From Anaerosoma tenue (GTDB taxonomy: Bacteria > Actinomycetota > Coriobacteriia > Anaerosomatales > Anaerosomataceae), in assembly GCF_023161965.1 (NCBI RefSeq), contig NZ_JALNTY010000002.1, forward strand, positions 336,552 to 400,551: a stretch of DNA of 64,000 nt. The letters run 5' to 3'. Every line of letters starts with the position of its first letter. Position 1 is the stretch's first letter. A model generated the notes under the pieces. The model saw only the letters and a list, made by a program, of their open reading frames with translations, made no database searches and had not been told where the DNA came from. Shown in pieces: positions 12,054 through 22,222 of this stretch. The position numbers were made by a program, and so were the translations under genes.

Positions 12054-15000
12054 TCACCCGCCGAGCATCGCCACCGTCACGTGGTGGACCGCGCCATCGT
12101 CCACCAGCGGTACACGGAGGTCGGGCAGGTCGACCCCATCGGCGCTCATGCGGGCGACACCCCTGTTCACGCCCCGCGGATTCTCGACGGAGATCTCGTA
12201 GCGTGACCCCCCGTAGCGGAACGTGGCGGAGAAGCCGGGCCACGACTTGGGGATGCACGGGTCGATCACGAGGAGCCGGCTATCGCCGTCGGCCACGGTC
12301 CTGAGTCCGAGGATCTCGCGCACTGCCGTGCGGTAGAACCACGCTGCGGATCCCGTGTACCATGTCCACCCGCCCCTGCCCGTGTGCGGGTCCGCCGCAT
12401 ACACGTCGGCAGCCAGCACGTACGGCTCCACCTTGTAGCGCTCCACCCCGTCACGCTCCCTCGTGTGCGTGATGGGGTTGATCAGGTCGAGCAGAGAGAC
12501 CGCCTCGTCGCCATCGCCCAGCCGGGCATACGCGAGCGCGACCCACAGTGCGGCATGCGTGTACTGTCCGCCGTTCTCACGTACACCCGGAACGTATCCC
12601 TTGATGTAGCCGGGGTCGTTCTCGATCCGGTCGAACGGCGGCGTAAGCAGCATGACGATGCCGTCGTCCCAGCGGACGAGCTCGCTCTCCACCGACTCCA
12701 TCGCCCTGCGCGCCCTGTCCGGATCTCCTTCTCCCGACAAGACCGACCACGCCTGGGCGATCGCGTCGATCCGGCACTCGGCGGCACGCGAGGTCCCGAG
12801 CGGTGTGCCGTCGTCGAAGTACGCTCTCCGATACCAGGCGCCGTCCCACGCGGAAGCGTCAGCCGCTGCCACGAACGACGCGGCTCGCTCGCGTAGGAGA
12901 GCGGCGGATCCCGCATCGCCGCGCACGTCGCAGACCTCGGCGAAAGCACGCATCGTCACGTCGAGGAACCATGCGAGCCACACGCTCTCTCCCTGGCCGC
13001 CTACGCCCACCCGGTTCATGCCATCGTTCCAGTCGCCGCCACCCATCAGCGGCAGGCCATGCTCGCCCGTGGGTGACAGCCGGAGCGCGGCGAGGCAGTG
13101 CTCGTAGACGCTGGCCACACGAAGTGACGACACGGGCTGCAGGTAGAGATCCTCACGGCCTTCCGGTACCGGCGGACCCTCCAGGTAAGGGGTCTCTACG
13201 TCGAGCACCGAGAGGTCGCCGGTCGCCCGTACGTAGTCCGCTACCACGAGCGGCAGCCAGTGGCGGTCGTCAGAGAAGTGCGTGCGGACCCCTCTGCCCG
13301 AGACCGGTTGCCACCAATGGAGCACGTCACCTTCGGGGAACTGACGCCGCGACGCCTCGACGATATGCTCCCGCACCATCTCAGGGCGGACGTCCATGAG
13401 CGCGAGGCAGTCCTGGAGCTGGTCTCGGAAGCCGAAGGCGCCGGATGACTGGTACGTGGCTGTCCGCCCCCAGGTGCGGCATGAGAGCGACTGGTACAGC
13501 GATGCGGTGACCATGGCGTCCAGCGCCGGGTCGGGCGTACTCACCCGCACCGTGTCGAGGATGGAGCGCCACGCGCCCTTCACCGACTCGAGCTCCGCAT
13601 CGACCGCGCCGGGTGCGCGCAGCCTCGCGATCGACGCGTGCGCCTCCTCCACCGTAGCGGTCTGGCCGAGGAGGAACACGACCTCGGCGCTCTCGCCGGG
13701 CCCGAGCTCCACCGGGCGCATCAACGCGCCGCAGTTGTCGTGGAAACGGCCGGTGAGGCCCCCGAGGAACGCCCTTCGCATCGCCGCCGGGAACCGGGGG
13801 TCGCCGTTGCGGCCGATGAACTCGGTGCGACTTGCGGTGAACGAGCCCACCTCGCCTGTGCAGGCGACGAACGCGGGCCGTCCCGGGAAGTCGAGGTTGA
13901 ACCAGCTGTGCGCCATGAGGGCGTTCGCAGTGTCGTCCCACCACGTGACCACGCGCTTCTGAGCGGCGCTCCGCGAGTCGCCCAGGCTCCACTCCACGAA
14001 GTGGGTGACCGAAAGCCTCCGCGGCGAATCGCCAAGGTTGGTCAGACGCAGCCTGGCCACACGCACGGGATCGCCGCTCGCGATGAACCAGTCGAGCGAG
14101 TGCTCGACCCCACGGGTCGTGTGCTCGAACCGTGAGTACCCGCGGCCATGCCGGATCACGTACGGGTCACGGTCCCGGACCGGGAGAGGGGTGGGGCTCC
14201 AGAACTCGCCCGTCTCCTCGTCTCTCACGTAGAGGCACTCGCCGGTCCCGTCGGAGACCGGATCGTTGTTCCAGGTCGTGATGCGGTTCTCGTGGCTGTT
14301 CTCGGCCCATGTGCAGCCGATGCCGGCCCCGGAGATGAGCGTACCGAAGTGCGGCCCCGCGATCACGTTCACCCACGGGGCGGGTGTGTTCTCGTCATCC
14401 TGGAGCACGATCACGTATTCGTCGCGATCGAGATCGAAGCCGCCGTAGCCGTTATCGAACGCGAGCGACGGCCGCTCGAACACCGGTGTGGGATGGGGCG
14501 CCGGGTCCGCCGACGCGTGAAAGTCGGGCGGCGGGTCGGGTCGCTGCGCACGCCTATCCAACTGGAGGCCGATCGGCCCCCGGTCACCTTCGATGACGAC
14601 GCGAGCGACACTCTCGAGCAGGTTGAGGACCTCCGGGCGCATCTGGTCGGCCGTGCGAAGGAAGACACCACCGGGGCGGTCGGTCAGTTGCAGCGCGTGC
14701 CCGGTGCGGAAGAGCGTACGCAGGCGTCCGTCGAGATCGGATGCGTAGCCGGTGGGTCGCGTGTTGAGTATCACGAGGTCGGTCTCGAACCCCTGGCTCC
14801 GCCAGTACTGATGGGCGAGCAACGCCTGTCGCGCGAGAGGGGTCTGGTCCACCTGCTCGATCTTCAGCAGCAGGATCGGATAGTCGCCCGATATGCCTAT
14901 CTCCCAGAGCCCCGATATGGGGAGGCGGTTCTCGACCTCCGTATGCACCTTGAGGGTCGAGTACGGATCGGTGAGCAGCATGCGGGAGGCCAGGCGCAGG

Positions 15001-18000
15001 AAGGTGACCGACTCCTCGGGCGTGATCCCCAGGTCGCGCAGTTCGATCCGGCTCGTGGACCACGCAAGGTCTGCCGCGCGCTGCGCGTTGCCGATGTCGT
15101 GGTACTTCTCGGCGAGATACACCACGCGTTCGCGCGAGTCGGCGGCGCCGGTGATGAACGCGAGGTGCGCGGACTCACCCGGCGGCACCACCAGGGGCTG
15201 CCGGATGGCGCAGATGGGGTCGAGCACCGGGCCGGTCGTCGCGGTCAGGCGGCCGCCGTCGTAGACCGCCTGAGCGCTCGCCGGGGTCCGGAGCCGACCG
15301 AGGAAACGGGCCCGGTCGGTCTCGTACGACCACGAACACGCGTCGTGGGCGTCACACGCCAACGCGTGGAGGCCCCAGTACCGCGGCTCCTCTGAGGACC
15401 GCGGACGGCGGGAGAACAGGAGCGCGGTCTGCTCGTCCAGCGCCTCGGTCTCCACGAACAGGTTGCTGTACGCCTTGTGCGCGTGATCGGCCCCGCGCGG
15501 CGCCAGGGTGACCTCCAGGTACGACGTCACCTCGAGCGAAAGCGTCTCGCGTCCGTGGTTCGTGACCGTCACCCGCCGCACTTCCACATCGTCCTCGGGC
15601 GAGACGATCACCTCGGTGTGCGTCTCGACGTTCCCATCGAGGCGGCGGAACTCGGCCTTGTCGGCTGAGAAGGTCACGTGGTAGTCGTCCGGCGTGGCCA
15701 GTGTCGGCTGGAACGCCGCGGACCAGATGGCCCCTGACTCGACGTCCTTGATGTAGATGAAGCTTCCCCAGCAGTCGCGGGTGATGTCCTCGCGGTAGCG
15801 TGTGACGGTACGGTCGCCCCACCTGCTGTAGCCGCCACCGGCGTTGGTGACCATCACCGAGTACAACCCGTTGGACAGGAAATGGGTCGAGGGCACCGGG
15901 GTGCCGGCGAGCGGGTAGGCGCGTGCCACCGGCGCGGGCACCTCCCGCACCGAACGCACGAACTCCACCTCTTCGGCCCTGGGCTGCGCTGCCTGGATGC
16001 GGCGGGGGACACGCTCCTGGAGCAAGAGCTCGGCCGAGGAGACCAGGGGGTCGGCATGGAACCGCTCCTGCATCCTCGACGCGGTGAGCATGTTGCCGAG
16101 CGCCAGCATACTCATGCCCTGGTGATGCGCCATGTATGCCTTCACGATGGCGCGCTCGGCCCCTGCGGGGACCCGGCCCGGGGTGTAGTCGACCGCCTCG
16201 TAGTAGCCGAACCGTCCCTCGGCTCCCTGACGGGTGAGCGCGACCAGGTTGTCGAGGCTCTCCCGCGGCGCCACCATCAGCGCGAGCACGGTGGCGTAGG
16301 GCGCGACCACCACATCGTCGGAGAGCCCCCGCTTGAGGCCCAGGCCGGGCACGCCGAACGCCTGGTACTGGTAGGTGAGCTCCACGTCTTTGGCGTTGAA
16401 CGCCGACTCCGAGACGCCCCACGGGACGCCTCGCTGGCGTCCGTACTGGATCTGTCTGCGCACGACACCTTCGTAGGTGCGGTCGAGCAACGTCCCCGGC
16501 CAGCTCTTCATCACCAGGAGCGGCATGAGGTACTCGAACATGCTTGCGCTCCAACTCACGAGCGCCGCACCGCCGTCGGTGCGCGTTATCGCACGCCCAA
16601 GCCTGAACCAGTGCTCCTGCGGTACGTCGCCCTTGGCGATCGCAAGGAAGCTCGCGAGGCGGCACTCGCTCGCAAGCATGTCGTAGTAGGAGTCGTCGAG
16701 CTTGCCCTCGGCGGTGTTGAACCCGATGGAGAAGAGCAGGCGGCGCTCGTCGAAGAGCATCGCGAAGTCGGTGTGCTCCCACATCTCCCGCGCGATGTCG
16801 GCCGAGAGCCTCATGCGGGCGAGCAGCTCGGTCGCCGCCGGCCGGGCGCCTCGGATGGCGGCAGCCACACGCGTCGCCCACGCCGCGTCCGCGTCGCCGG
16901 AGGCGGCAACACGGTCGAGCTCGGCAAGAGCGATCTCGAGTCCCTCGGCAAGCCCCACGAGACTCGGCACGTGATCGAGGAGGGGCGTCAGCTCCGCCGA
17001 GCGGACACCCGCGTGCGAGCCGTTGGAGGCGAGGACTTCGCGGGCCCATGGGGCGTAGGCATCCACCAGTCCGCGTGCCTTGTCCACGGCACCGGCCACT
17101 GCGAGCGTCGATTCCACCGCGCAGCCCACATCTTCCGTCATGCCGGGGGTCACGACCTCATCGAGGCGCGAGCGGAGAGGTCCGGTAAGGGCGTGCAGGC
17201 CGTCGAGGAGGATGAGCCATTGGCCGAGGTTGGTGGGAGCGTCGTCGAGCCTGATGCGGCGTATCACCTCTTCGAGTGCGGTGCGCGTCTCGGCTATCGC
17301 CGGATGCGCCCGGACAGCGCCGGTGGCCGCCGCGAGGTCCTCCAGCGCGAGGCGCGCGGTGTCGGTGATGCCCGAGAGGATCTCGACGGACAACAGCGGT
17401 CGTTCGGTGGCCTCGAGCAGCGCTACACGGAGGACCAGGAGATGGCCGGCGAGGTTCCCGGAGTCGACCGTTGAGACGTAGGTGGGCCGGAGCGGCTCCA
17501 GCGTCGTGGTGTCGTACCAGTTGTAGAAGTGGCCCCTGAAGCGCTCCATGCCGACCATGGTGGTGAGCGTGCTGGCGACGTGCTCCGACAGCTCGCGCAC
17601 GGTGATATAGCCGAGGTCGTACGCGGTGACCTCCGAGAGCAGCTGCAGCCCGATGTTGGTGGGTGAGGTCCGATGCGCGACCTCGCCCTTGGGATCCTCC
17701 TGGAAGTTGTCGGGCGCCAGGTGGTTGTCCTCCGCGGTCACGAAGGTCTCGAAGAAGCGCCACGTCTTGCGTGCGGCATGGCGCATCGCGGTCACGTCGT
17801 CGTCGGTGATCTCCGGCGATGGCGGCGGGGAGGGGCGGCTGGCGAGCCAGGCGGAGACGGGAGACGCCACCCAGAGAGCCAGCACGGGCACGACCGGGAG
17901 CGGTGCGAGGGGGCTGCCGGCGGCCGCCGACGCGGCGACGACTGCGGACGTGCCGACCGCAGCCGAAGGCCACATCCGGGACACGAAGGCGTGGACCGAG

Positions 18001-20777
18001 CCGGAACCGAGCCGGCGCTCGGCCTCGGCGGCGGTCTCCCACTCGAGGAGGTTCCGCTTGCTCACCGCCATCCGCCAGAGCGCACGCGCGATCGCGTCGG
18101 TCATCAGTTGTGCCTGGTGGGGTATCACCGCCACGTCGAGCGCGGTCCTGAGCACGTCGCGACGGAGGTCCGAGAGAAGCGCCGCGCGGTCGCTCCGTGT
18201 CTCGGCGGGGGCCCGCCGCGTGAGCGAGTCGAGCAGCCCGAACAACAGAGGGAAGAGCAGTATCACCGCCACCACGCCCAGCCACCACCACGAGGGCGCC
18301 GGGAGGACGGCGACGCCGGCCACCACGAACGCCACCGTGGCCATGGGCCGCAGCGAGCGCCGCAGGTTGTCGACGATCTTCCAGCGGTGCAGGAGCGTGA
18401 GGGGGTTCCGCTCCCTTCCTTCAGGGGTGGGCACCCGCGGCATGAGCCACGGCACGGTCTGCCAGTCGCCCCGGATCCAGCGATGCAGCCGCGCGCAGTG
18501 GGATATGTAGCTCGCGGGCTGGTCGTCGTAGACCTCGATATCCGAGGCGAGGCCCGTGCGCAGGTAGGATCCCTCGAGCAGGTCGTGGGAGAGGAGCGTG
18601 TTCTCCGGGAAGCGGTCCTCGAGCACCGCGTTGAAGACGTCCACCTCGAATATCCCCTTGCCGGTGAACGAGCCTTCGCCGAAGACGTCCTGGTAGGTGT
18701 CCGAAACGGCGCCCGCATACGGATCGACCCCTGTGACCCCCGAGTAGAGCCATGCGAACAGGCTGCCTGCCGAACCCTCGATCGACATGGCCACCCGCGG
18801 CTGGATGAGCCCATAGCCGGTGCGCACCGTCCGCGTCACGGGGTCCACGACGGCGCGGTTGAGCGGGTGGGCGATCGTTGAGATGAGCTTGCGCGCACCG
18901 TCCCGCGGCAGGACCGTATCGGTATCGAGCGTGATGACGAACGTGACGCCCGCATACTCGTCCGGGTCTGCATCCACCACGGTGAACGAGGTGTCGCTCG
19001 CGCCTCTCAACAGGCGGCAGAACTCGCTCAGCGCGCCTCGTTTGCGCTCCCAGCCCATCCATGTCCGGTCGGCCTCGCTCCATGTGCGCCCACGCACGAA
19101 CAGGGCGAACGGGCGGTCATGCGGCCCCCCGTATCGGTCATTGAGCAGGCTGACGCCCTGTCGGGCAGCCTCGATGACGGCGTCGTCGCCGGCCGCCTGC
19201 TGTTCGGGGCCGCCGCGGAGATCCGCGAGGATTGCGAAGCGCACGTTGGGGTCGCGGTTCGCGAGGTAGCCGACCTCCATGTTGTCGATCACGTGCTGGG
19301 CGGCCTTGGCGGACGTGAGAAGAGCCGTATACACGACCATGGTGCTGTGGGCCCGGGCGACCGGTCGCCGGTGATCGATCTTCGCGAGCCTGCGGGGCGG
19401 CCACAGCCATGCGGCCAGCCGGTTCGCGATAGTCATCCCCACCTCGGAGACGGGCAGGAGCGCAAGGACGCCGAGGAGGATCGCCGTCCACGCCGTGCCT
19501 GTCCGCGTCCAGGCGAACACGGCGATCGAGGAAGCGAGCGCCAACGTGGTGCCGCCGAGCACGCCCCAGTAGATGGCGCCGCGGGCCGACAGCGGCCCAC
19601 GATGTATGCGCTCGCGCAGGCGCGGTCGATAGCCTACGGAGCGCTCGAAACCGTAGCGCCCGCGGCTTATGAGGTAGTGGCCGACATGGCTCCCGAGGGT
19701 GTCGGCGGGGTCCGCCGCCAGCGCTTCGAGACAGTGGCTGATAACGGCCTCGGCGACACCGGCCTCGGTGAGGGCGCTGCGCTGCGAGAGCTCCTCCACG
19801 GTGTGCCGGTATCTGTCGCGGCTTGCGAACTCCATGCGCGGGTACACACCGGCGGGGTCTTCCCGGAGGATCTGCTCCACAACGCTGACGCGCTCGAAGA
19901 ACTCACGCCACTCCAGGGCATCGAGCAGGCGGATGCTGGTGATCGCGTTGGCGATCGACACCTGATCGGCGGCCTGCTGCTGATGCTCGGCCGTCGTGAG
20001 ACGCTCGAGGTCGGCGTCCCGCTTCCGGAACTCGGTCTCCAGCCAGTCGGCGATCGGGCCGAGATCGCCCTCGATGCCCGTGAGCCGCTGCGAGAGACGG
20101 AGCAGGAACGCGGGCGGCGCGTCAGCGTGGGCGGCCTCGAGTTCCGCTATCCGCGCCGCCAGGGCATCCGGCCCCTCATCGGCGGCCACCACGAGCCGAT
20201 CGGCGAAGCGCTCTCCACCCACGATAGCCTGGTGGCTCTGCAGGATCCGCAGTGACAGCCGCCTCAGGTTCTCGATGAGGGCTGTCCGCACCATGATCGG
20301 CACCGCCCAGACCTCGCCGATCGAGAGGTCCGTGACCTGCTGGTACGCGGTGACGACACCCGTGAGCGACTCCTCATCGACCCGTGAGTCGGTGTGGGCG
20401 AGCAGGAACGCCATCAGCTCCATCACGCGCGGGTACCCCGCGAACGATCCCTCGGTCAGTCGCGGCAGGCGGGCGCCGTAGCGCGCGGGGAGATCGTCCA
20501 CGACGAGGCGCACCTGCTCCTCGACAAGGTAGTAGTTGTCCAGCAGCCACTCGGCGGCGGGCGCTACGGGTATGTCCTCTCGCACGTCGGCGGCCAGCGT
20601 GCGATAGACGGCGGCGATCTCGTCGGATGCGCGTTCCAGCAGGCCGAGGACAGGCGTGCGGGCGCTCGTGGGGCCGGAGGCCCAGCGCTGCCCGCGCGCG
20701 AGCGTGCGCGCGGCCGCGGCTATACGGTCGGCGCCGAGCAGCTCCCCGCGGAACGGCTCATCGTCGCGCGGGCGCAA
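12054..20777 (-). CDS. ndvB: Cyclic beta-1,2-glucan synthase-like protein (GT84 + GH94)
   Basis: At 2907 residues this is the largest gene here and matches NdvB/ChvB/Cgs in size and domain order. Two or more membrane helices lie at about 400-470. A GT84 glycosyltransferase follows, with the LDTDT (DxD-like) motif near 612 and HRWIRGDWQ (Q/RxxRW-like) near 766, then more membrane helices (about 810-845 and 935-975). A glycoamylase-like domain covers about 1010-1560. Two glycosyltransferase-36 beta-sandwich units begin near 1620 and 2100. Last is the GH94 phosphorylase barrel, with its catalytic GGGDWNDGM near 2581 and GGWTWYTGSAAWFYR near 2810. Such enzymes polymerise UDP-glucose on themselves and trim chain length by phosphorolysis. 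The start is TTG without a good Shine-Dalgarno, so the N-terminus is uncertain. No NdvA-type exporter is adjacent. Confidence 0.9.
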   Translation of the reverse strand: MRPRDDEPFRGELLGADRIAAAARTLARGQRWASGPTSARTPVLGLLERASDEIAAVYRTLAADVREDIPVAPAAEWLLDNYYLVEEQVRLVVDDLPARYGARLPRLTEGSFAGYPRVMELMAFLLAHTDSRVDEESLTGVVTAYQQVTDLSIGEVWAVPIMVRTALIENLRRLSLRILQSHQAIVGGERFADRLVVAADEGPDALAARIAELEAAHADAPPAFLLRLSQRLTGIEGDLGPIADWLETEFRKRDADLERLTTAEHQQQAADQVSIANAITSIRLLDALEWREFFERVSVVEQILREDPAGVYPRMEFASRDRYRHTVEELSQRSALTEAGVAEAVISHCLEALAADPADTLGSHVGHYLISRGRYGFERSVGYRPRLRERIHRGPLSARGAIYWGVLGGTTLALASSIAVFAWTRTGTAWTAILLGVLALLPVSEVGMTIANRLAAWLWPPRRLAKIDHRRPVARAHSTMVVYTALLTSAKAAQHVIDNMEVGYLANRDPNVRFAILADLRGGPEQQAAGDDAVIEAARQGVSLLNDRYGGPHDRPFALFVRGRTWSEADRTWMGWERKRGALSEFCRLLRGASDTSFTVVDADPDEYAGVTFVITLDTDTVLPRDGARKLISTIAHPLNRAVVDPVTRTVRTGYGLIQPRVAMSIEGSAGSLFAWLYSGVTGVDPYAGAVSDTYQDVFGEGSFTGKGIFEVDVFNAVLEDRFPENTLLSHDLLEGSYLRTGLASDIEVYDDQPASYISHCARLHRWIRGDWQTVPWLMPRVPTPEGRERNPLTLLHRWKIVDNLRRSLRPMATVAFVVAGVAVLPAPSWWWLGVVAVILLFPLLFGLLDSLTRRAPAETRSDRAALLSDLRRDVLRTALDVAVIPHQAQLMTDAIARALWRMAVSKRNLLEWETAAEAERRLGSGSVHAFVSRMWPSAAVGTSAVVAASAAAGSPLAPLPVVPVLALWVASPVSAWLASRPSPPPSPEITDDDVTAMRHAARKTWRFFETFVTAEDNHLAPDNFQEDPKGEVAHRTSPTNIGLQLLSEVTAYDLGYITVRELSEHVASTLTTMVGMERFRGHFYNWYDTTTLEPLRPTYVSTVDSGNLAGHLLVLRVALLEATERPLLSVEILSGITDTARLALEDLAAATGAVRAHPAIAETRTALEEVIRRIRLDDAPTNLGQWLILLDGLHALTGPLRSRLDEVVTPGMTEDVGCAVESTLAVAGAVDKARGLVDAYAPWAREVLASNGSHAGVRSAELTPLLDHVPSLVGLAEGLEIALAELDRVAASGDADAAWATRVAAAIRGARPAATELLARMRLSADIAREMWEHTDFAMLFDERRLLFSIGFNTAEGKLDDSYYDMLASECRLASFLAIAKGDVPQEHWFRLGRAITRTDGGAALVSWSASMFEYLMPLLVMKSWPGTLLDRTYEGVVRRQIQYGRQRGVPWGVSESAFNAKDVELTYQYQAFGVPGLGLKRGLSDDVVVAPYATVLALMVAPRESLDNLVALTRQGAEGRFGYYEAVDYTPGRVPAGAERAIVKAYMAHHQGMSMLALGNMLTASRMQERFHADPLVSSAELLLQERVPRRIQAAQPRAEEVEFVRSVREVPAPVARAYPLAGTPVPSTHFLSNGLYSVMVTNAGGGYSRWGDRTVTRYREDITRDCWGSFIYIKDVESGAIWSAAFQPTLATPDDYHVTFSADKAEFRRLDGNVETHTEVIVSPEDDVEVRRVTVTNHGRETLSLEVTSYLEVTLAPRGADHAHKAYSNLFVETEALDEQTALLFSRRPRSSEEPRYWGLHALACDAHDACSWSYETDRARFLGRLRTPASAQAVYDGGRLTATTGPVLDPICAIRQPLVVPPGESAHLAFITGAADSRERVVYLAEKYHDIGNAQRAADLAWSTSRIELRDLGITPEESVTFLRLASRMLLTDPYSTLKVHTEVENRLPISGLWEIGISGDYPILLLKIEQVDQTPLARQALLAHQYWRSQGFETDLVILNTRPTGYASDLDGRLRTLFRTGHALQLTDRPGGVFLRTADQMRPEVLNLLESVARVVIEGDRGPIGLQLDRRAQRPDPPPDFHASADPAPHPTPVFERPSLAFDNGYGGFDLDRDEYVIVLQDDENTPAPWVNVIAGPHFGTLISGAGIGCTWAENSHENRITTWNNDPVSDGTGECLYVRDEETGEFWSPTPLPVRDRDPYVIRHGRGYSRFEHTTRGVEHSLDWFIASGDPVRVARLRLTNLGDSPRRLSVTHFVEWSLGDSRSAAQKRVVTWWDDTANALMAHSWFNLDFPGRPAFVACTGEVGSFTASRTEFIGRNGDPRFPAAMRRAFLGGLTGRFHDNCGALMRPVELGPGESAEVVFLLGQTATVEEAHASIARLRAPGAVDAELESVKGAWRSILDTVRVSTPDPALDAMVTASLYQSLSCRTWGRTATYQSSGAFGFRDQLQDCLALMDVRPEMVREHIVEASRRQFPEGDVLHWWQPVSGRGVRTHFSDDRHWLPLVVADYVRATGDLSVLDVETPYLEGPPVPEGREDLYLQPVSSLRVASVYEHCLAALRLSPTGEHGLPLMGGGDWNDGMNRVGVGGQGESVWLAWFLDVTMRAFAEVCDVRGDAGSAALLRERAASFVAAADASAWDGAWYRRAYFDDGTPLGTSRAAECRIDAIAQAWSVLSGEGDPDRARRAMESVESELVRWDDGIVMLLTPPFDRIENDPGYIKGYVPGVRENGGQYTHAALWVALAYARLGDGDEAVSLLDLINPITHTRERDGVERYKVEPYVLAADVYAADPHTGRGGWTWYTGSAAWFYRTAVREILGLRTVADGDSRLLVIDPCIPKSWPGFSATFRYGGSRYEISVENPRGVNRGVARMSADGVDLPDLRVPLVDDGAVHHVTVAMLGG

Positions 20778-20933: not shown

Positions 20934-20961
20934 GTGCATCCACCGATCCTCCGGAGGTCTG

Positions 20962-21663
20962 ATGAGTCGCGCCAAGTGGATACTTCTTGCAGTGGGGGCC
21001 GTCGTCGTCGCGGCCGTCGCCATCGCCCTGTCGTCGGGGTCTCCGCAACCCGGCCTGGTGGGGAACCGCGATGTCGAGAAGCTGCGCGCTGAGGGTGCGC
21101 GCATCGTCGATGTGCGCACAGCGGCGGAGTTCACCGGCGCCCACATAGAGGGTGCCGAGAACGTTCCGCTGAGCGACATCGCGGCAGTGGCTTCGAGTTG
21201 GGACCGGAGCATCCCGGTGGTGTTGTACTGTGCCGTGGGTGACCGGAGCGACACCGCAGCGGAGATCCTCGCTTCGATGGGCTTCGAGCGCGTCTACGAC
21301 CTGGGCGGAGGCATAGTCCAGTGGGATGGCGCGCTGGCCGGGGGCGCCGGCGCCACGGTGGCGTCCGCCGACGTGGAGACGAACGGCATGCCCGTGATGT
21401 ACGAGTTCTACACTGATTGGTGACCCAGCTGCACCGCTATGGAGCCTGTGGTCGACAGGCTGCGCACCGAGTACGAGGGAGTCGTCGAGTTCCGCCTCGT
21501 GAACGCCGAGACCGATGCCGAGAGCCAGGCGCTCGCGACGCGGTTCGGGCTGCAGTACGTGCCGTCGTTCGTGTTCCTCGACAGCGATGGCACCCAGCGC
21601 GATCTGGTGGTGGGCGAGGTGAGCGAAGAGGATCTGCGGGCGGTCCTGGACTCGCTGCAGTGA
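20962..21663 (+). CDS. Membrane-anchored rhodanese-thioredoxin selenoprotein (in-frame TGA = Sec)
   Basis: Read through the TGA at 21421-21423 this is one 233-residue protein. Residues 5-24 form an N-terminal membrane anchor. Residues 35-125 are a rhodanese domain with active-site Cys90 in YCAVGDRS. Residues 145-233 are a thioredoxin fold whose active site reads DW-U154-PSC157, with cis-proline at VP201SF. If TGA stopped translation, the first product would end at the tryptophan before the active site and the second half (same frame, 21424-21663) would lack it. A hairpin 19 nt past the TGA resembles a bacterial SECIS. The ATG at 20962 has GGAGG 4 bp upstream. Predicted role: persulfide handling on a periplasm-side membrane face, with the thioredoxin domain reducing the rhodanese persulfide. 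Trans-acting sel genes are outside the window. A simple Cys-to-TGA nonsense mutation is the main alternative. Confidence 0.85.
21443..21461 (+). promoter_or_regulatory. Candidate bacterial SECIS hairpin
   Basis: AGCCTGT (21443-21449), loop GGTCG (21450-21454) and ACAGGCT (21455-21461) form a perfect 7-bp stem. The loop starts 27 nt after the TGA, inside the 16-37 nt range usually accepted for bacterial SECIS elements. It presents G then GU in the apical loop, as in the fdhF element whose loop also contains GGUC. Confidence 0.65.
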
Positions 21664-22147: not shown

Positions 22148-22222
22148 GGGCGAGTGGCGCAACGGGAGCGCACCTGCTTTGCACGCAGGGGGTTGTCGGT
22201 TCGAATCCGATCTCGTCCACCA
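22148..22222 (+). tRNA. tRNA-Ala (UGC)
   Basis: Acceptor GGGCGAG (22148-22154) pairs with CTCGTCC (22212-22218, one G-U), then A and encoded CCA (22220-22222). The anticodon stem CCTGC/GCAGG closes loop TTTGCAC, giving TGC at 22180-22182. The T-loop is GGTTCGAATCC. Confidence 0.97.

Follow-up and report, generated by a model that had tools for sequence, protein, structure and literature searches.

The window, which is the whole 64,000-nucleotide stretch of Anaerosoma tenue DNA that was analyzed, carried two open reading frames that shared one frame and were separated solely by the TGA codon at 21421-21423. A first-pass annotation had noted this pair and proposed that the TGA was read as selenocysteine (Sec); the pair proved to be a single 233-codon gene with an internal TGA at the first Cys of its thioredoxin part. 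The gene and the features around it were as follows.

12054-20777, reverse strand: divergent neighbor encoding a 2907-residue protein, found at this position in 20 of 20 loci, which we take to be cyclic-glucan-synthase-like (called from its sequence, not by profile search)
20950-20957, forward strand: Shine-Dalgarno-like stretch around GGAGG, 5' of ATG 20962; the same motif occurs in many homologues
20962-21663, forward strand: predicted selenoprotein gene (N-terminal helix, rhodanese and Sec-thioredoxin, 233 residues), with its stop TGA at 21661-21663
20968-21033, forward strand: N-terminal hydrophobic helix (residues 3-24), a membrane anchor or uncleaved signal
21076-21327, forward strand: rhodanese domain (residues 39-122), active-site Cys90 in YCAVGDRS
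21370-21651, forward strand: thioredoxin domain (residues 137-230), WUPSC site and cis-Pro 201
21421-21423, forward strand: TGA predicted to be read as selenocysteine (residue 154)
21444-21460, forward strand: putative bacterial SECIS hairpin, 6-bp stem GCCTGT/ACAGGC, loop GGTCG at 21450-21454
22148-22222, forward strand: tRNA-Ala(TGC), found 3' of the fusion gene in 19 of 19 homologous loci scanned, at a varying distance

The TGA codon occupied the position that the first Cys holds in a thioredoxin site of the form WCPSC (MYEFYTDW-U-PSCTAMEPVV). When the read-through product was searched with Pfam profiles, the rhodanese (PF00581) and thioredoxin (PF00085) parts scored 62.4 and 50 bits, against cut-offs of 22.2 and 23.5, respectively. 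The structure model had a mean pLDDT of 89 and placed two folded domains after the helix of residues 3-24, with an uncertain inter-domain arrangement (pTM 0.57); the second domain matched thioredoxins in Foldseek with a TMt of about 0.80. A lipobox rather than a plain helix was read from the sequences of 10 of 34 homologues, which makes an outward-facing position of the domains the most likely one. The helix and the lipoboxes thus agree with the membrane anchor proposed in the first pass and refine the predicted location: the protein is most likely membrane-anchored and its domains extracytoplasmic. Two PF02683 (DsbD/CcdA) proteins scored above the cut-off in the genome and could be the electron source for the thioredoxin domain. 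A CcdA-like protein is encoded at 44922-45569 of contig 1.

Of the 69 genomes of the order that were searched, 51 carried the full-length fusion; each of the 53 copies had a single in-frame TGA and was otherwise free of internal stops. The presence of this codon in 53/53 homologues showed that it was not there by chance, and none of the 53 carried Cys in place of Sec. When 34 homologues were inspected singly, the TGA site was constant and was followed in all of them by 79 codons, ending in TGA, TAG or TAA. These 79 codons were under purifying selection, with dN/dS values of 0.06-0.28 in ten pairs of relatives and 0.24-0.31 in three pairs that included the window gene. In an alignment of 30 distinct fusions, positions 154, 157 and cis-Pro 201 were invariant, UPxC was present in all 30, and the rhodanese Cys was kept in 29; the catalytic loop of the window gene conformed to CxxGxRS. 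The remaining fusion (L047, genome G083) had Tyr instead of the rhodanese Cys (YYATGSRS) and still carried the Sec TGA. The linked architecture spanned about 14 families of the order; this persistence, together with the retention of Cys in 29/30 fusions, suggests that the rhodanese-thioredoxin pairing is used.

Searches through 298 genomes belonging to the class and 396 belonging to the phylum turned up no complete fusion with Cys at the Sec position. A peptide-pattern scan of 84,980 species genomes, whose reach was confined to close relatives, returned matches only in records labelled Actinomycetota. For the thioredoxin half, Cys at the Sec position was found in a CPFC paralogue of the same genome and in thioredoxins in the PDB. 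The first-pass annotation had called for Cys homologues as a check; Sec homologues did span the TGA and Cys homologues of the thioredoxin half were recovered, but a Cys counterpart of the complete fusion was not. Two partial, TGA-less matches (L091 and L092) were considered as Cys versions and rejected, since they are degenerate fusions whose active sites contain no Cys and no Sec. These lipoprotein fusions (L091:3415-3969 in G101 and L092:4097-4711 in G099), without rhodanese Cys or thioredoxin CxxC, are possible pseudo-enzymes.

The putative SECIS hairpin began 20 nt past the TGA and placed its apical loop 26 nt past it. The stem had a minimum free energy of -8.9 kcal/mol and the loop was 5 nt long with G as its first base; loop, spacing and energy were all within the rules for bacterial SECIS elements (PMC13188914). 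The six pairs were intact in 30/30 distinct fusions (180/180 cells paired), and 15 double-sided changes were counted in the stem, compared with 4.7 in shuffles. When held-out stand-alone genes were added, 98% of the cells were paired and the double-sided changes numbered 26 versus 7.7, with double-sided change at three of the pairs. Where a Pro codon ended in T, C or G, the codon three residues later began with A, G or C, respectively; since the Pro-codon change is silent and is paired with a changed base, this is evidence for the hairpin at the RNA level. A covariance model was built from the 30 distinct fusions only. In the organism's own genome its two best matches were this gene (54.7 bits) and the TGA of a stand-alone paralogue, also a selenothioredoxin (49 bits); the match ranked after these had an E value of 0.27. 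It also matched the TGA of stand-alone selenothioredoxin genes at further loci that were absent from the training set. An Rfam search returned no family matching the hairpin.

Two arrangements of further TGA-containing genes were seen in other genomes. In G395, two selenothioredoxin lipoprotein genes (L101:3467 and 5239) lay less than 2 kb apart, both with matches to the SECIS model. In G521 (L100:5629), a glutaredoxin-like frame with a TGA in UPYC (KIFTTSTUPYC) lay about 320 nt past a selenothioredoxin TGA, a possible selenoprotein tandem.

The genome encoded the machinery for selenocysteine. A profile search found selB on contig 4 with 380 bits, above the cut-off, and the tRNA-Sec gene (selC) just 3' of it reached 72.5 bits, where the gathering score is 47. 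Directly 5' of selB lay selD (L009 5527-6477) and selA (L009 6558-7961), both assigned from the translated sequence rather than by profile search, giving a compact selD-selA-selB-selC cluster. The first-pass annotation had made its reading depend on selB and selC in particular, and all four genes were thus present. SelB exceeded the cut-off in 38 of the 51 fusion-bearing genomes, and six more had clear selB pieces or selA. SelA and SelB were both undetected in seven of the 51, two of which were 96-98% complete MAGs; in such genomes the machinery may be absent or the operon missing. G045 (L065) and G049 (L069) were near-complete MAGs that carried a TGA fusion and no detectable selA or selB, reflecting either a missing operon or real loss. 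SelB was also present in 13 of 18 order members without the fusion, compared with 38/51 with it, so that the gene is common in the order regardless of the fusion and its co-occurrence carries no weight.

If the TGA were an ordinary stop, the gene product would be a rhodanese of 153 residues, with the thioredoxin part either a relic or a separate product translated from ATG 21439. Standard gene calling gives this same reading and an open reading frame does begin at ATG 21439; however, that start would lie 3' of the active site, neither TAA nor TAG occupied the TGA site in any of the 53 full-length homologues, and the purifying selection past the TGA and the covariation of the SECIS both argue against termination, which we regard as highly improbable. 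Some homologues have Val or Ile in place of the ATG 21439 codon, and for this lack of conservation re-initiation there was rejected. Insertion of another amino acid at the TGA (through a code change or Trp or Cys suppression), or a sequencing error, found nothing in the data in its favor except the TGA itself, whereas the same gene terminates in TGA, 53 copies carry TGA at one catalytic Cys position, tRNA-Sec, selA, selB and selD are in the genome, and a SECIS-like hairpin lies 3' of the codon; we give this explanation hardly any credence. The Sec machinery, the conserved TGA, the covarying SECIS and the purifying selection past the TGA strongly support the reading as selenocysteine that the first pass had put forward, with selB and selC present and Sec homologues spanning the codon. 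As judged from these sequence data, the gene very probably encodes a fusion of a rhodanese with a Sec-thioredoxin in which TGA specifies selenocysteine (probability about 0.95, a figure for the identity of the fusion and not for the relay considered below).

Apart from the tRNA-Ala gene, no conserved downstream genes were found at the fusion loci, and no sulfur-metabolism gene was linked to the fusion gene. Some members of the order carry the glucan-synthase-like gene and no fusion, and we therefore do not claim a functional link between the two. A rhodanese-free selenothioredoxin occupied the same divergent locus in three genomes (G016, G025 and G085). When a tree was built from the thioredoxin part, two of the three nested among the fusions with moderate support, suggesting that they have lost the rhodanese. 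Given the absence of the rhodanese at the locus in three genomes and the loss of its Cys in one fusion, the selenothioredoxin looks like the core of the protein and the rhodanese like a substrate-delivery module, missing from some lineages.

With Sec at residue 154, the internal UGA would be decoded by SelB-tRNA(Sec), guided by the hairpin just 3' of it, and the product would be anchored in the membrane and face outward. The Sec154-Pro-Ser-Cys157 redox pair would make the thioredoxin domain an extracytoplasmic reductase, presumably recharged through a CcdA/DsbD-type membrane protein. Cys90 of the GlpE/PspE-type rhodanese may take sulfane sulfur from thiosulfate, polysulfide or persulfides, and the Sec-Cys pair may then reduce the Cys90 persulfide, with release of sulfide. 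Thioredoxin has been reported as an acceptor or reductant of a rhodanese persulfide (PMC11957799), and PspE is a periplasmic rhodanese that uses thiosulfate (PMC10215317).

Provided that the Sec reading is right, reduction of the Cys90 persulfide by Sec154-Cys157 has a little less than an even chance in our estimate. Such a relay had been proposed in the first pass, and it fared unevenly: the chemistry and the parallel with TsoB favor it, the missing rhodanese at the locus in three genomes and the loss of the Cys in one fusion count against it, and it is a step that we infer. About equally likely is that the Sec protein serves general extracytoplasmic disulfide or peroxide reduction, like the DsbD c-domain, ResA and TlpA, with the rhodanese in a regulatory or accessory role; on its own this too falls just short of even odds. 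Stand-alone lipoprotein selenothioredoxins of this kind are encoded in the same genome, in other members of the order and in Actinomycetota outside it, and they point to such general reduction, as do the rhodanese-free orthologous locus in three genomes and L047 with its missing rhodanese Cys. The active-site Cys kept in 29/30 fusions and the linked architecture across about 14 families count against a purely general reductase. Carried further, the persulfide relay would make the protein a single-chain cell-surface sulfane-sulfur reductase in which the selenothioredoxin discharges its own rhodanese persulfide, a stripped-down cousin of TsoB with a separate CcdA; Sec would be obligatory in it because no Cys version was seen across the order. 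We hold this fuller version more tentatively than the relay itself. Among OPB41/Anaerosomatales cultures, thiosulfate and sulfur are reduced by one but not by another (PMC9686372), indicating that the role of the protein need not be respiratory.

The fusion is an addition to the selenoprotein architectures, one that would come out of routine gene calling split or truncated. Its hosts form a little-studied order of anaerobes whose few cultured members probably include a thiosulfate and sulfur reducer. As both halves lie on one chain, the protein could be used to test whether selenium makes the reduction of persulfides outside the membrane faster, and the well-covarying Actinomycetota SECIS can be used to find more genes.

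Judged only against the inventory of a 2026 review and NCBIfam, this is a new selenoprotein architecture. The entries consulted in the table of the review include a thioredoxin with UxxC and rhodanese forms 1-5, and none of them joins a rhodanese to a UxxC thioredoxin; the main text of deep-Sep 2025 mentions neither rhodanese nor thioredoxin; and among the matches listed, no NCBIfam model was matched above its cut-off. The novelty suspected in the first pass therefore holds against these review entries and NCBIfam, with the addition that TsoB, which it had not named, is close in design.

The bacterial Sec thioredoxin (PF00085, UxxC) shares the thioredoxin fold and Sec in place of the first Cys of CxxC. 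To our knowledge, the cytosolic-type form has neither a membrane anchor nor a rhodanese fusion, whereas the present protein is predicted to be membrane-anchored, outward-facing and rhodanese-fused. Rhodanese-like selenoproteins of forms 1-4 (UxxS, UxxG, CxU) likewise contain a rhodanese domain; in these the Sec motif lies in the rhodanese-family protein, whereas here the rhodanese has Cys and Sec would lie in the attached thioredoxin. E. coli PspE and GlpE have a single rhodanese domain, and PspE is likewise extracytoplasmic, but they carry no thioredoxin on the chain and this protein scored below the cut-offs of both. TlpA/ResA-type proteins resemble it as anchored, outward-facing thioredoxin folds, presumably recharged by CcdA or DsbD; however, the ResA model gave 21.9 bits against a cut-off of 170, and the present protein would have Sec instead of Cys, plus a rhodanese. 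TsoB (NF045694, rhodanese/DsbD fusion-like selenoprotein) also combines a rhodanese on the N-terminal side with a thioredoxin on the C-terminal side in one membrane-bound selenoprotein. Its profile was matched at both ends in the same order (rhodanese 61-150 and thioredoxin 470-550 of 572), with 49.2 bits against a cut-off of 805, which places this protein outside the family. TsoB has a DsbD membrane core and two Sec residues (UxxxxU), whereas the present fusion lacks that core and combines one predicted Sec (UxxC) with a rhodanese Cys.
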